This document shows positions 22,407 through 30,650 of a stretch of 34,397 bases of DNA, piece after piece. The stretch covers positions 1 to 34,397 of IMG/VR virus record IMGVR_UViG_3300042868_005930; one strand, given 5' to 3'. Source of the stretch: a virus. Under the pieces are notes generated by a model. It was not told the DNA's origin. It made no database searches and was given only the letters and a program-made list of their open reading frames with translations. The position numbers were made by a program, and so were the translations under genes. Every line of letters begins with the position of its first letter. Position 1 is the first letter of the stretch.

Positions 22407-22427
22407 TTGCTTTTTGTTTTTAATTAG

Positions 22428-22514
22428 TAGTCAGGACAGGATTCGAACCTGCATTTCGACGGATATTAAGCGCTCTTAACGCACCGCCGATGTTACCAAT
22501 TACATCACCTGACT
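22428..22514 (-). tRNA. tRNA-like gene, probably Leu (anticodon UAA), with abnormal anticodon arm
   Basis: On the minus strand the 87-nt sequence has a 7-bp acceptor (AGTCAGG/CCTGACT), T8-G9, a canonical D arm (ATGT-AATTGGTA-ACAT), a T arm (GCAGG-TTCGAAT-CCTGT) and discriminator A. The anticodon region does not fit 17 nt. Either the stem GGCGG/CCGTC closes a 21-nt loop, or an inner stem GGTGC/GCGCT holds a normal 7-nt loop GTTAAGA with T33 and anticodon TAA. No CCA is encoded. UUA is the expected common Leu codon in such an AT-rich genome. The gene may be decayed or carry an insertion. Confidence 0.75.
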
Positions 22515-24572: not shown

Positions 24573-25556
24573 TTAAAAAGGACAGTCTTCGTCTTTAATT
24601 GGTTCTATAAATTTATACTCGTTTACTTCCCTACCTATATTCATTAAATTGGCTGGTTTAGGTATTTCTTCTTTTGGTATATGTAAATTAGTTTGTATGT
24701 TTTCTGGTCGTTTAATACAATCTTTTCCATTGCATTTAAAACCATAGCCATAATTATAATCAAAAAAAACAGGTTGATCTAATAAGGTTTGTTTTCCTCC
24801 TGTATCAGTATCTTTTACTTTTTGCACTTCAACAAGCGTTGTAAACTTTAAATCTTTATGTCCATTTAACCTATGAATAACTAAAAAATCATCTGCTTTA
24901 TTTGAAAATGCTTTACCACCTTCAATATCGGCTTTAAATGGAGCTGTTAAATGACCTTCCCAACTATGCCCTTTTGGATATACTGCATTTCTTCTACCAC
25001 TTGCAGTGGCTGGGTGTGCATTTATGTATATTGTTTTATTAGTCTTTTTGCAAAACATTTTTAAATCATTTAACACATCATAGTTTCCTGAGTATGTTAA
25101 AGAAGTTTTTAAAGCATTAAAAGGATCAATTAAACAAACATCTGTATTTGCATCTTCAAACACTTTTAAAAGGTCTTCAGGTGTATATCTAAGCTTATTA
25201 TCTACAAATTTAAAATAATACTCTAATTTGATTATTCCTTTCTCAATTTCGAGATTAGTCATTTGTTCAATAGGCTTAGCATAATACATCTTTAACATAT
25301 CTCTAATCACTTTATATGAAGCATTTTCATCCATAAATAAAGTAAAAGTTAAATTATGATTAGTTGCAAGTGCTAAAAAATACCACTCCATAAAGTAAGT
25401 TTTACCTACGTTATCATGTCCTAAAGCAAAGTTTAATTGACCTTGTTTATGAACAAAGAACTCATCAAAATAAATATTTAATCCAAGTCCTTTTGGTATC
25501 AATCCATTTTTATAATCTAAAATAGATTGTAAACTATGTCCGTCTTTAAGTATCAT
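24573..25556 (-). CDS. RecA-fold replicative helicase-like ATPase (RepA/DnaB type)
   Basis: 327 residues. Walker A is GHDNVGKT at 46-53, Walker B VCLIDP at 140-145, followed by a HPATASG segment that could act as sensor. This AAA_25/RepA-like layout is that of phage replicative helicases and their single-domain relatives. It follows the initiator gene by ATGA overlap, the same order as lambda O and P or other phage initiator-helicase pairs. The C-terminus ends EPIKDEDCPF, an acidic tip resembling the SSB docking tail, which is unusual for a helicase. It should unwind DNA at the origin. Confidence 0.8.
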   Translation of the reverse strand: MILKDGHSLQSILDYKNGLIPKGLGLNIYFDEFFVHKQGQLNFALGHDNVGKTYFMEWYFLALATNHNLTFTLFMDENASYKVIRDMLKMYYAKPIEQMTNLEIEKGIIKLEYYFKFVDNKLRYTPEDLLKVFEDANTDVCLIDPFNALKTSLTYSGNYDVLNDLKMFCKKTNKTIYINAHPATASGRRNAVYPKGHSWEGHLTAPFKADIEGGKAFSNKADDFLVIHRLNGHKDLKFTTLVEVQKVKDTDTGGKQTLLDQPVFFDYNYGYGFKCNGKDCIKRPENIQTNLHIPKEEIPKPANLMNIGREVNEYKFIEPIKDEDCPF

Positions 25557-26224
25557 GATTTATAGTTTTTAAGTATTTGTTCTTCTATACTTAAATCTTC
25601 ATCTTTTTTTATACCAAAATTAGGATTAGTTTCCCTTCTACGTTTTATCCAGTTTTGAATAGTAAGATTAACAGAATTATTTTTTTTAGTCAATTCTTTT
25701 GAATTTTCCATTGATTCTAATATATCTTTAATTGCAAACCTATCATATTTACTAAGAAGTTTTTTAGCTTGTTCATTTGTTAATTGAATTGATAATTTAG
25801 ATACATTTTTTAAATCATTTTGAATCCAAAAACAAAGTGGATGCATCTCTATATTATTATTAGTAGTATTAATAGTAGTATTATTGGGTAAAGTTTCTTT
25901 ACTACCCCCCAGTAAAGTTTCTTTACTACCCCTGTTAAGATTCTTTACTACCCCTAAAGAAATTTTATACCTATTAAAACTAACCCCATTAATAGTATTT
26001 ACATTCTTAATAATTAGGTTTTTTTCAGTTAAAAACTTTAATGATTTTATAGCGGTAGGGCGTGAACAATTAAGCCACTTACATAGATAATTAATAGAAC
26101 CAGTAAACTCTGTTTCACCATCTTGAGAAAAGCCATAAATAAGTGCATATGTAAGTAAGTCATTACCTGACAAATTCAATTCTGAAACCATCCAGCCTTG
26201 AATAACTAAATAATTGTCTTTCAT
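25553..26224 (-). CDS. Replication initiator with N-terminal winged helix (lambda O/DnaD-like)
   Basis: 223 residues. Residues 1-85 look like a replication-protein wHTH (VIQGWMVSELNLSGNDLLTY; INYLCKWLNCSRPTAIKSLK). Residues 91-113 are a Gly/Ser/Lys/Glu/Thr linker translated from three iteron-like repeats (25888-25954). The C-terminal ~90 residues resemble a helicase-loading domain with DILESMENS. The order wHTH, repeat-encoded linker and partner-binding domain is the same as in lambda O. It begins by TAATG overlap with the 58-codon gene and ends by ATGA overlap with the helicase. It should bind the repeats and load the downstream helicase. Confidence 0.75.
   Translation of the reverse strand: MKDNYLVIQGWMVSELNLSGNDLLTYALIYGFSQDGETEFTGSINYLCKWLNCSRPTAIKSLKFLTEKNLIIKNVNTINGVSFNRYKISLGVVKNLNRGSKETLLGGSKETLPNNTTINTTNNNIEMHPLCFWIQNDLKNVSKLSIQLTNEQAKKLLSKYDRFAIKDILESMENSKELTKKNNSVNLTIQNWIKRRRETNPNFGIKKDEDLSIEEQILKNYKS
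25888..25954 (-). repeat. Three iteron-like repeats inside the initiator gene (candidate origin)
   Basis: Plus-strand copies GTAAAGTTTCTTTACTACCC at 25888 and 25912 are perfect; the copy at 25934 is GTTAAGATTCTTTACTACCC. Starts are 24 and 22 bases apart. Each perfect copy holds the palindrome GTAAAG-TTT-CTTTAC. An AT-rich tract (about 25852-25886) lies on one side. This is the lambda ori pattern. Confidence 0.65.
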
Positions 26225-26400: not shown

Positions 26401-26423
26401 AAATAAATAAATTTTTGGTTAAT

Positions 26424-26476
26424 AAAAAAACCCCTTTGACTTTCGCGGCTCTCACCTCGCTACTCATCAAAAGGGT
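26424..26476 (-). terminator. Intrinsic terminator with long loop, part of the structured RNA
   Basis: Stem 26476-26467 with 26439-26430 (10 bp), 27-nt loop that contains segment a', followed by TTTTTTT (26430-26424, the first paired). It lies 24 bases before the 58-codon gene. Confidence 0.7.
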
Positions 26477-26516
26477 AAATTCAATTTCTTTAAGTTCTAT
26501 AGTGTGAGAGCGAACC
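26424..26516 (-). ncRNA. Candidate structured RNA (~90 nt) with own promoter and terminator
   Basis: Behind TATATTTG (26530-26523) the minus strand holds segment a GCTCTCAC (26511-26504), b ACCCTTTTGA (26476-26467), a' GTGAGAGC (26455-26448) and b' TCAAAGGGGT (26439-26430), then T7. a pairs perfectly with a' (8 bp) and b with b' (10 bp, one G-U), in order a-b-a'-b', giving an H-type pseudoknot or two alternative folds. The T7 after b' makes the b stem a terminator. Either a free RNA or an attenuator leader of the initiator operon. Confidence 0.6.
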
Positions 26517-26522
26517 GATACA

Positions 26523-26530
26523 CAAATATA
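26523..26530 (-). promoter_or_regulatory. Probable promoter (TATATTTG) of the structured RNA
   Basis: Minus-strand TATATTTG fits TAnnTTTG; 19 nt upstream is TTC, two of three TTG bases. It lies 28 bases after the helicase-methyltransferase stop. Confidence 0.55.
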
Positions 26531-26558: not shown

Positions 26559-28733
26559 TTAAAATAATGTTTGTTGTTTCTTTTTTTCCTCTACATTTGA
26601 TAGATTTTTAACGGCGATATCAAAATAATTTTCTTTTAATTCAACTCCTAAATATCTTCTATTATTTTCAATTGATACATAACCTTCAGTACCTATTCCA
26701 TTAAATGGACTAAATACTAAATCGTTTGAATTTGTATAAAGTTCTAAAAGTCTTTTAATAGGCTCTTTTTGCGTAGGTGTCATATGTTTTTCATCATGTT
26801 CAGCTTTAGCCTCTCTAATACTTAAAACATCACTTGCATCTATTTCACCTTCCAACCAAATAGGTTCTGCAATTTTACACCAATAATCAAAGGGTAATCC
26901 ATTTTTATCATGGTTAACAGGGAATTCATTCACTCCATCTTTTTTGAAAGTTAATAAATAATCAGGGAATCCCATTCTATTAACTGTACTATCTTTTTTG
27001 GTAGTTGCGTGTAATAGTTGCATATTCTTTGTACGTTGTGCTATAATTTTAGGATCTTTCCAAATAGCTACTTCAGCATGAAAAGTCCATCCATATTTTT
27101 GCATTGCTCTAATTAAATCACCTCTAAAATCAATTATCTCTAATTTTCCATCTCTACCTTTTGATTTACTTAATTGAGTACAGTGCATTGACAATAACCG
27201 ACCTTCTTTTGTAATTCTTAATAACTCTGGAATCATAAATTCAAAATGTTTAAAAAAGTCTTCATAGCTTTTATTATTGCTTAGATCTCGCGGATCGTTT
27301 GAATACATATACAAGTCACTAAATGGAGGTGAAAAAAAAGTATAATCAATTGAATTATCTTTAATTGTTGTTATATACTGAGTACTATCCCCATTTACTA
27401 AAGTCCAATTAATACCTTTTTCAGTTCTGAAATTTTCATCAGTTGCATGAATATTTGAATTAGATTCATTCATTGCTCTTTGCATTTCTTTTTGCATATT
27501 CTCAAATTTTAATTGTTTATCTTTTATTGCTTCAATTACATTACCCATAGTTTCTACAGTTATTAAGGTAACATTTACATTATTTTTTTGACCAAACCTC
27601 CAACTCCTTCTAATAGCTTGATATAAACCTTCAAAACTAAAATCAAATGATAGGAATATTTGATTTTTACAGTGTTGATAATTCAATCCGAATTGAGCTA
27701 TTTTAGTTTTAGTCACTAAGATTCTAAAATCATTATTTGCAAAGCCTAATAATCTTTTTTCTTTTATCTCAGGTTTATCACTACCGTTAACAGCTACCGC
27801 TTCAGGAACTAAAGAAAGTAGTTCTTTTTCTTCTTCATTTGATTTTATCCAAACAATAAAACTTTCATTTGAATTATTAAGTATTTCAACAACTGCTTTA
27901 ACCCTGTTTTCCTGAGTTACTTTTAATTCTTTATAAAAGTCAGTTGCACTAACTTTAATATCATTAAATAGTTTACCGTTATTTTGCTTTTCAACAGCTA
28001 TTTGTAATTCATTCATAAATAATTCTGGTAATACATAACCTTTTCCTAAATAACCAATATCACTTGGATTGCTTAGCATTAAAGACCAGCTACCAACCCA
28101 ATTCCAAAAGTCTTTAATAGAATGTTTTTTAAGTCTCCATTTACTTATAGTGTGATCTTTATTGAAAGCATCATTAATAAAAAAAATAGAAACCATTTCT
28201 TTTGATGTCATAACGTTTAAAAACTCCGCATGATTACCTAATTCAATATGATCATTTGGTGAAGGTGTTGCAGTACATGCTAATTTATATTTGTGATCCT
28301 TAAAAGTATCTAAAATAAGTTGTTTTGTACTTCCGTTGTAATTCTTTAAAATAGAACTTTCATCTAATACAACACCTGAATAAATACTGCAATCTATTTT
28401 ACTTAATTGCTCATAGTTTGTAATATCAAAACTATTCAAATCAATACCAAACTTATTAGCTTCTTGTTTAGTTTGACCACTAACAGCCAAAGGTGCTAAT
28501 ATTAATACTTTCTTGCCAGTGTAATTATATACTTCATTTGCCCATGATAACTGCATTAAAGTTTTACCTAAACCACAATCTGCAAAAATTGCAAATCTAC
28601 CCTTTTTTAATGCTGTCTTAACAATAAACCTTTGAAAATCAAATAAGTTTTTATTTAACTTACTTTCTTCAATCTCAAAACCACTTTCTATAAATGATTT
28701 TCTTTTGCTTTCTAAAAATTGCTTATATTCCAT
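26559..28733 (-). CDS. SNF2-like helicase fused to N4/N6 DNA methyltransferase
   Basis: 724 residues. The helicase part has Walker A DCGLGKT (52-58), motif II DESS (124-127), motif III TATPSP (154-159) and motif VI QAIRRSWRFGQ (372-382). The methyltransferase part has catalytic SPPF at 468-471 and the AdoMet-binding FSPFNGIGTEG at about 674-684, so the motif order is that of a beta-class N4-cytosine/N6-adenine enzyme. The C-terminus ends KKKQQTLF, which resembles the QxxLF clamp-binding motif. Such fusions in phages may combine remodelling with self-methylation against restriction. A candidate promoter is at 28750-28757. Confidence 0.85.
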   Translation of the reverse strand: MEYKQFLESKRKSFIESGFEIEESKLNKNLFDFQRFIVKTALKKGRFAIFADCGLGKTLMQLSWANEVYNYTGKKVLILAPLAVSGQTKQEANKFGIDLNSFDITNYEQLSKIDCSIYSGVVLDESSILKNYNGSTKQLILDTFKDHKYKLACTATPSPNDHIELGNHAEFLNVMTSKEMVSIFFINDAFNKDHTISKWRLKKHSIKDFWNWVGSWSLMLSNPSDIGYLGKGYVLPELFMNELQIAVEKQNNGKLFNDIKVSATDFYKELKVTQENRVKAVVEILNNSNESFIVWIKSNEEEKELLSLVPEAVAVNGSDKPEIKEKRLLGFANNDFRILVTKTKIAQFGLNYQHCKNQIFLSFDFSFEGLYQAIRRSWRFGQKNNVNVTLITVETMGNVIEAIKDKQLKFENMQKEMQRAMNESNSNIHATDENFRTEKGINWTLVNGDSTQYITTIKDNSIDYTFFSPPFSDLYMYSNDPRDLSNNKSYEDFFKHFEFMIPELLRITKEGRLLSMHCTQLSKSKGRDGKLEIIDFRGDLIRAMQKYGWTFHAEVAIWKDPKIIAQRTKNMQLLHATTKKDSTVNRMGFPDYLLTFKKDGVNEFPVNHDKNGLPFDYWCKIAEPIWLEGEIDASDVLSIREAKAEHDEKHMTPTQKEPIKRLLELYTNSNDLVFSPFNGIGTEGYVSIENNRRYLGVELKENYFDIAVKNLSNVEEKKKQQTLF

Positions 28734-29911: not shown

Positions 29912-30280
29912 TTATTTTAAATTGTTTTTGATCCATTTCTCTAAACCAAACGTTGTATCTAATATTGAAGTAGCTCTTTGTGTTAAAGAGTCGATACACG
30001 CTCTAATTTCTGTAACATCGTTTGAACAATAATACCCATTTTTAGTGCTTAATATTGGTAAGATTGAATTGATACGATAGTAGTTTATAATTTTTCGTAA
30101 TCTTACCTCTGTAAACTTGAAATCTAAAACCATATTAGCATTTACTAACTTAACAATATCACACGCTAAAATAGGATTGTTCGGTGTTCTCTTTTTAAAT
30201 GCTGGAATTAACTTGTGTGCTAACTGAATCTCAGCATCTGTCATATTACTCGTGTGTTCTTCAAATCCTTTGATACTCAT
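29912..30280 (-). CDS. Unknown early protein (122 aa), possible winged-helix
   Basis: 122 residues. An N-terminal helix is followed by SNMTDAEIQLAHKLIPAFKK, then ACDIVKLVNANM, RLRKIINYYRIN and ILPILSTKNGYYCSND, which resembles a helix-turn-helix with wing and the 'GYY' segment often seen in phage small DNA-binding proteins. Overlaps the DnaA-like gene by 20 nt. A regulatory role is inferred only. Confidence 0.6.
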   Translation of the reverse strand: MSIKGFEEHTSNMTDAEIQLAHKLIPAFKKRTPNNPILACDIVKLVNANMVLDFKFTEVRLRKIINYYRINSILPILSTKNGYYCSNDVTEIRACIDSLTQRATSILDTTFGLEKWIKNNLK

Positions 30281-30650
30281 TTTCTAATAATATTAAAGAG
30301 TTAACTAAATTAATATTTAAATCTTCATTCATTGTACAAGTTTCTTTTCCGAAATTTAATACCAAATCAAACTTTTCTTTCATTTGTGGGTTATAACCAT
30401 CAAACGCATCAAGCATTGAATGTTCAGCGTATACCACAGTCGAATGATGTCGATTAAACATTTCACCGACTTGTGTTTGTGTTAACCCTGCTAACCTCAT
30501 CCAAACCATTCCAACACTTCGCCACGTGGCTACTGAGTGCAATTTAGTCTTTCCAAACAAATCATTTAAAGGAATAGGACATACTTCAAAGAAAGAATTT
30601 TGATTTATTACGTAACTATGAACGTGATTGTGCAATTGATCTATTATCAT
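30261..30650 (-). CDS. Orphan DnaA domain IV-like DNA-binding protein
   Basis: 129 residues. Residues about 35-80 match the DnaA C-terminal DNA-binding domain: HSVATWRSVGMVWMRLAGLT, QTQVGEMFNRHHSTVVYAEHS, the latter being the DnaA signature xxRxHSTVxxA with Arg67, His68-69, Ser70. No AAA+ domain is present. The gene lies between two promoters whose upstream elements contain DnaA-box-like TTATCAACA, so it may bind them, or host oriC, or phage DNA. Start is by ATGA overlap with the 45-codon membrane gene. Confidence 0.75.
   Translation of the reverse strand: MIIDQLHNHVHSYVINQNSFFEVCPIPLNDLFGKTKLHSVATWRSVGMVWMRLAGLTQTQVGEMFNRHHSTVVYAEHSMLDAFDGYNPQMKEKFDLVLNFGKETCTMNEDLNINLVNSLILLENEYQRI

Follow-up and report, generated by a model that had tools for sequence, protein, structure and literature searches.

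The 34,397-nucleotide stretch of viral DNA analysed here (IMG/VR virus record IMGVR_UViG_3300042868_005930, positions 1 to 34,397; hereafter the window) very probably contains a lambda-like replication origin within the gene that encodes the cognate initiator, a reading in which binding by the protein and the start of replication are inferred. More broadly, phage initiators with an HTH_36 domain are likely to form a self-addressed family, in which a helix reads a half-site within its own gene through a residue-to-base code, and the cassette of winged helix-turn-helix (wHTH) plus origin travels separately from the C-terminus and the helicase or loader that goes with it. If this is true, sequence databases already hold hundreds of natural protein–site pairs that spell out a winged-helix recognition code, and the address of an origin would be predictable from protein sequence. 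Origins inside initiator genes are already known from lambda and the Stx phages (PMC7466680), SPP1 (PMC6316719) and RepA_N plasmids (PMC5703833). As far as the literature searched shows, the helix-to-half-site code across the family is new; neither a survey of HTH_36 phage origins nor a helix-to-iteron code was found there, with most subscription papers and preprints lying outside the scope of the search.

Iterons and initiator of the window

The features discussed below are as follows (all on the minus strand).

24573..25556: 327-aa RecA-fold helicase-like protein (phrog_18375, phrog_239; tblastn to phage primase-helicase records)
25553..26224: initiator gene, 223 aa, with an N-terminal wHTH, a linker predicted to be disordered and a helical C-terminus
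25556..25843: C-terminal part of the initiator, exchanged along with the downstream gene in relative L002
25852..25886: AT-rich tract, candidate unwinding element, directly after the last iteron; 86% AT; same position in relatives
25888..25902: iteron 3, perfect dyad (0 mismatches)
25912..25926: iteron 2, perfect dyad (0 mismatches)
25934..25948: iteron 1 in gene order, diverged, in the other codon frame (dyad with 1 mismatch)
25958..26224: winged-helix domain (HTH_36), codons 1-89 (Pfam; AlphaFold model; Foldseek)
26024..26062: predicted recognition helix, codons 55-67 (DSSP of the model; mutual information; co-changes)
30261-30650: 129 aa, carrying the box-binding C-terminal domain of DnaA (domain IV-like; Pfam, E 7e-9)

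An initial annotation, made from sequence alone, had claimed three repeats (two perfect, one diverged) spaced 22-24 bases apart, each with a GTAAAG/CTTTAC palindrome and translated as the linker of a wHTH initiator, and all of these claims held. Each iteron is a 15-bp dyad, GTAAAG-NNN-CTTTAC, with the half-site GTAAAG, and the copies start at 25888, 25912 and 25934 (plus-strand coordinates; start-to-start spacing 24 and 22) with 0, 0 and 1 mismatches, 21 identical bases being common to the copies at 25888 and 25912 and the copy at 25934 having diverged. In gene order the diverged iteron comes first, followed by the two perfect iterons and the AT-rich tract. Translated as residues 93-113 of the linker, the iterons use two codon frames, the perfect copies yielding GSKETL twice and the diverged copy VVKNLN. 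On a repeated-dyad score (two similar dyads with arms of 6 and spacers of 1, 3 or 5, 17-70 bp apart) the initiator gene reached the maximum, 24 of 24, as did 3 of 3000 shuffles preserving the protein and its codons; the iterons are constrained at the level of DNA, beyond protein coding. Scanning the whole window for the dyad gave 6 matches (2.75 expected by chance), of which the three outside the iterons carry 2 mismatches each, and no second cluster of the GTAAAG dyad rose above chance in the window. An AT-rich tract had also been claimed beside the repeats, at about 25852-25886, and this too held: it lies at the 97.6th percentile among all 35-mers of the window, though the AT maximum of the initiator gene is at 25780 and not in this tract.

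The wHTH assignment was confirmed by Pfam (HTH_36, PF13730; E 8e-9, 35.6 bits against a cut-off of 25) and by the structural model, in which pLDDT is above 90 for the wHTH and below 50 for the iteron-coded linker (98-133), which the model predicts to be disordered. Among PHROG profiles the initiator matched those of phage initiators and DnaD-like loaders, including phrog_6969 (E 8e-33), and it matched phrog_678 at 5e-4, compared with 2e-35 for lambda O. Neither Phage_rep_O (PF04492), which lambda O itself matches, nor a RepA_N domain was among its Pfam matches at E up to 0.1. The best Foldseek matches of the model were 4pt7, 4pql and 5kbj (Z 8.9, 8.8 and 7.9), which we take to be RepA_N-type Rep entries, comprising initiator N-domains and a Rep–DNA complex (partly from their titles and from PMC5703833), and DnaD (2v79) was also among the best; many unrelated wHTH proteins score alike.

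Repeats and AT-rich tracts in related initiators

The initiator or its N-terminal domain was used to query IMG/VR, GTDB genomes and phage records for relatives, and the 405 matching ORFs were reduced to 217 by removal of duplicates; 220 other ORFs from the same loci, scored in the same way, served as the control set. Retention of the repeats in relatives had been named beforehand as a test that could refute the origin, and it was passed: a dyad score of at least 22 was found in 172/217 family genes compared with 1/220 control ORFs. Similarly, 162/217 family genes and 7/220 controls had a score equalled by no more than 5 of 100 synonymous shuffles. One criterion or the other was met by 184/217 genes and neither by 33/217, the latter including L005 and L009, Ficleduovirus relatives with visible but weak repeats. 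Cultured relatives include Bacteroides phage B40-8 and Ficleduovirus phages. The best dyad pairs begin just behind the wHTH, the median offset from where the domain match ends being 2.5 nt, and their distances cluster at 20-24, 42-46 and 63-69 bp.

A half-site could be called in 175 genes (score of at least 21), and the 163 of these in which at most 10 of 100 shuffles were as good were used further. Adjacent iterons in these genes are mostly 20-24 bp apart, and the available flanks of the 163 loci contained no perfect dyad copy outside the initiator gene. The 45 nt after the last iteron average 81.7% AT, against 62.6% for the gene, and reach or exceed the gene's 90th AT percentile in 142/159 genes; the AT peak starts right after the last iteron in 136/159. 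Run through the same script as a positive control, lambda O scored 22, with 0/200 shuffles as good, and the four iterons annotated in its record lie in the same part of the gene. The initial annotation's proposal of a lambda-like candidate origin is supported, with origin activity and binding still inferred.

Bacterial chromosomes were a poor source of further pairs, with matches, mostly weak, in 14/391 and 6/395 genomes. As a separate observation, the initiator linkers of two relatives, L055 and L083, carry, near codon 98, repeats that are asymmetric around their centre (GTAAAGAAAGTTTAC), unlike the true dyads elsewhere.

Recognition helix and half-site

The usual difficulty in deriving rules of DNA recognition, knowing which site pairs with which protein, disappears when an initiator gene contains its own sites, and 163 natural pairs with 57 different six-base half-sites are enough to propose residue-by-residue contacts and to check these against natural pairs. 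When domain columns were ranked by mutual information with the half-site, residues 56, 59, 61, 57 and 60 came first, and the same five led in 113 representatives below 70% identity. The partial correlation between site and helix, given the rest of the domain, was 0.416 (maximum of 300 permutations 0.096), compared with 0.084 between site and the rest given the helix, which is inside its null. Simple rules emerged: C at -2 accompanies Gly57 in 94% of 36 genes, C at -3 accompanies Arg60 in 14/14, G at -5 accompanies Arg56 in 96% of 27, C at -4 accompanies Asn56 in 92% of 12, and A at -5 accompanies Pro56 in 98% of 45. With nearest neighbours drawn exclusively from proteins more than 50% different outside the helix, helix neighbours predicted 74.6% of half-site letters across the 163 genes, against 57.6% for rest-of-domain neighbours and 61.0% for a majority-type baseline. 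A count of pairs sharing the same five helix residues, and differing by more than 50% across the rest of the domain, gave a less clear-cut result than the other tests: the 20 such pairs differed at a median of 2/6 positions, and 45% differed at no more than one. Among genes with similar domains, L192 and L321 share 83% identity outside the helix and have the half-sites GTGCAA and GTGCCA, and L121 and L243 share 85% and have TTCAAA and TTAAAC.

Because shared ancestry is the main worry for any such covariation, changes were mapped on a tree inferred from the domain after the helix had been removed, using training and held-out genes; with so short a domain and parsimony, the counts are approximate. 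Gly57 changed 21 times and C at -2 20 times, 17 of these coinciding in both branch and direction; Arg60 and C at -3 changed 13 and 16 times with 12 shared, and Arg56 and G at -5 changed 24 and 30 times with 16 shared. The Jaccard index was 0.71 for both Gly57/C-2 and Arg60/C-3, far above the best of 278 control column–residue choices (0.18 and 0.25); values for Arg56 (0.42, best control 0.22) and Pro56 (0.28, best control 0.16) were lower, and Asn56 (0.23) was barely above its control (0.21). The half-site follows the recognition helix, and site and protein reading surface change together; it is covariation that is shown here, without binding data.

Rules were fixed in writing before the last scans and applied to 43 new genes, each under 90% identity to all 217; some plasmid, phage and genome loci had been retrieved before the rules were fixed, with their linkers still unread. 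The rule filter was passed by 23 of the 43. Among the 20 dropped were 12 genes from bacterial genomes that lack iterons (L406-L411, L413-L415, L418, L421 and L422; at least 17/100 shuffles reach the score) and which we regard as outside the family; the others were L398, L405, L491, L492, L495, L500, L530 and L535. Predictions were right in 20/23 cases: Pro56/A-5 in 5/5, Pro56/G-2 in 4/5, Gly57 in 4/5, Arg56 in 5/6 and Arg60 in 2/2. The misses came from L417, for both Gly57 and Arg56 (its dyad is possibly mis-centred, yet both were counted as misses), and from L534, for Pro56/G-2. Asn56 had no usable held-out case, and a Pro56/A-4 rule, also written beforehand, was left uncounted. The complements of the rules behaved likewise, with no C at -2 in 18/18 genes without Gly57, no C at -3 in 20/21 without Arg60 and no G at -5 in 15/17 without Arg56. 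Prediction of whole half-sites in 26 held-out genes was only modestly above baseline (helix 0.66, rest of domain 0.54, majority letter 0.60), and the gain from the helix sits at -5 and -2. In practice, the pairing offers a quick way of marking candidate origins in uncultured phages and some plasmids.

Origin model, rival explanations and module exchange

We propose that an initiator dimer (or two wHTH units) would occupy each 15-bp dyad, with one recognition helix per half-site GTAAAG; that the dyad copies, about two helical turns apart, would be gathered into one nucleoprotein complex; that the AT-rich tract adjoining the iterons would open; and that the C-terminal part of the initiator would bring in the helicase encoded just downstream. 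Binding, the use of a dimer, melting, helicase loading and a replication start at this site are all inferences. GC skew counts against an origin here, its sign being constant along nearly the whole window with no switch at 25.9 kb.

The repeats might instead be sites through which the initiator controls expression of the initiator–helicase operon, by autorepression or as a roadblock, without being an origin. The same pairing of initiator and site would then be expected, and binding within the gene could block transcription; however, the sites sit behind the wHTH codons and not close to where the gene begins, 136/159 genes have an AT-rich tract after them, and lambda and SPP1 share the layout with proven origins (PMC7466680, PMC6316719), leaving this explanation very improbable. 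We hold it equally improbable that the true origin lies elsewhere under a DnaA-like protein, with the linker repeats as secondary initiator sites. In its favour, the window encodes the 129-aa protein with a DnaA C-terminal domain, and SPP1 is known to have a second origin (PMC6316719); against it, the window contains no second dyad cluster and 1 DnaA-box-like match where 7.6 were expected, fewer than chance, and a DnaA-box cluster as the origin was rejected on that count. The domain IV-like protein nevertheless leaves room for another or additional origin as a possibility.

Two further explanations can be all but set aside. The DNA repeats could simply reflect a repeated peptide, GSKETL, with a function in the protein, for example as a helicase-binding linker; two of the three copies in the window do encode the same peptide, and the spacing of the best pair is a multiple of 3 in 85/172 genes, above one third (not a multiple in 87/172). 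Against this, the third copy is read in a different frame and gives a different peptide, iteron units occupy two or three codon phases in 132/163 genes, synonymous shuffles rarely reach the observed score, and the linker is predicted to be disordered. Alternatively, the dyads could be RNA hairpins acting as a terminator, an attenuator or in mRNA stability, and every copy is indeed an inverted repeat; but 25850-25960 folds no better than its shuffles (z -0.45; 62/200 fold as well), and half-sites that track a DNA-reading helix would be unexpected for RNA hairpins. Rfam contained no family matching the iteron site.

The favoured reading, an origin within the initiator gene, has its closest counterpart in lambda O and ori-lambda (and the Stx phages P27 and 933W), where the origin lies in the middle of the initiator gene, the iterons are imperfect inverted repeats spaced 20, 24 and 23 (from the record) with an A-tract centre, and an AT-rich region is present. 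In such systems, synonymous changes to the iterons abolish binding and plasmid replication (PMC7466680). The lambda parallel drawn by the initial annotation must be partly qualified: lambda O has Phage_rep_O where the window protein has HTH_36, the half-site sequences are not the same, and the downstream partner resembles a helicase (primase-helicase profiles) and not a P-type loader. The window initiator appears to be lambda O-like in its working, on the inference of origin activity and binding, without membership of the Phage_rep_O family. SPP1 gp38 and oriL likewise place origin repeats inside the initiator gene together with an AT-rich unwinding element (PMC6316719), as in the window, but SPP1 has a second origin, oriR, elsewhere and a separate loader, gp39.

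Plasmids provide two more comparisons. The N-terminal wHTH of the RepA_N protein pSK41 Rep binds Rep boxes within its own gene, the origin-encoded linker is dispensable, the A+T tract is bendable and the C-terminus binds the host DnaG primase (PMC5703833). The window resembles this system in having sites in its own gene for an N-terminal wHTH (binding inferred), and it differs in being a phage and in lacking a RepA_N domain match; N-domain structures taken to be of RepA_N type were among the best fold matches of our model, but many unrelated wHTH proteins score alike. In the Staphylococcus plasmid pPR9, an N-terminal HTH_36 domain (pfam13730), which has been likened to a phage replication protein, and another origin region are joined to a pSK41-type C-terminus in a working, compatible replicon (PMC5703833). 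This swap of N-domain and origin is the same kind of module exchange as in L002 (below), though it is a single plasmid case.

In the window, the helicase-like gene downstream overlaps the initiator gene by 4 bases. It had been called a RecA-fold helicase, and its 327-aa product matches phage primase-helicases in their helicase half (PHROG, E 3e-22), with no match to any Pfam model or PDB sequence. Over residues 1-113, which cover the wHTH and the iterons, the L002 initiator is a 96% match to that of the window; beyond them it diverges, and its downstream gene encodes a 596-aa Toprim primase-helicase in place of the 327-aa helicase; the C-terminus has been swapped together with the helicase gene. 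Across the survey, 37/113 gene pairs with N-domains at least 70% identical have no detectable C-terminal similarity. Downstream genes in the survey, judged by one representative per cluster, encode an IstB/DnaC-like ATPase, a DnaB-like helicase or a protein weakly matching the SPP1 G39P loader family, and others encode unrelated proteins such as SSB and a methylase. The pattern fits a C-terminus that would recruit whichever helicase or loader adjoins it, with origin specificity and helicase recruitment exchangeable separately.

Family initiators were also seen on plasmids. Two large Treponema plasmids (424 kb and 166 kb) encode one close to ParA genes (L396:1480-2784 and L397:1474-2526), with dyad iterons whose score was reached by 0/100 shuffles, and it is possible that a phage-type origin serves there as a plasmid replicon. 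On a 60-kb Eubacterium eligens plasmid (L395:1477-3258) the genes after an HTH_36 initiator encode a ZapE-type ATPase and then a DnaB-like helicase, and this plasmid may be a phage-plasmid.

Around the initiator gene of the window, an SNF2-like helicase fused to a DNA N6/N4 methylase is encoded upstream (26559-28733, minus strand). The intergenic region upstream of the initiator (26415-26530) carries two interlocking inverted repeats, GCTCTCAC/GTGAGAGC and CCCTTTTGA/TCAAAGGGG, which could, on paper, form a pseudoknot; they had no match in Rfam and fall within a 96.5% identical match to L001 and mostly outside the match to L002. The window also encodes a phage tRNA-Leu with anticodon TAA (22427-22514, minus strand).
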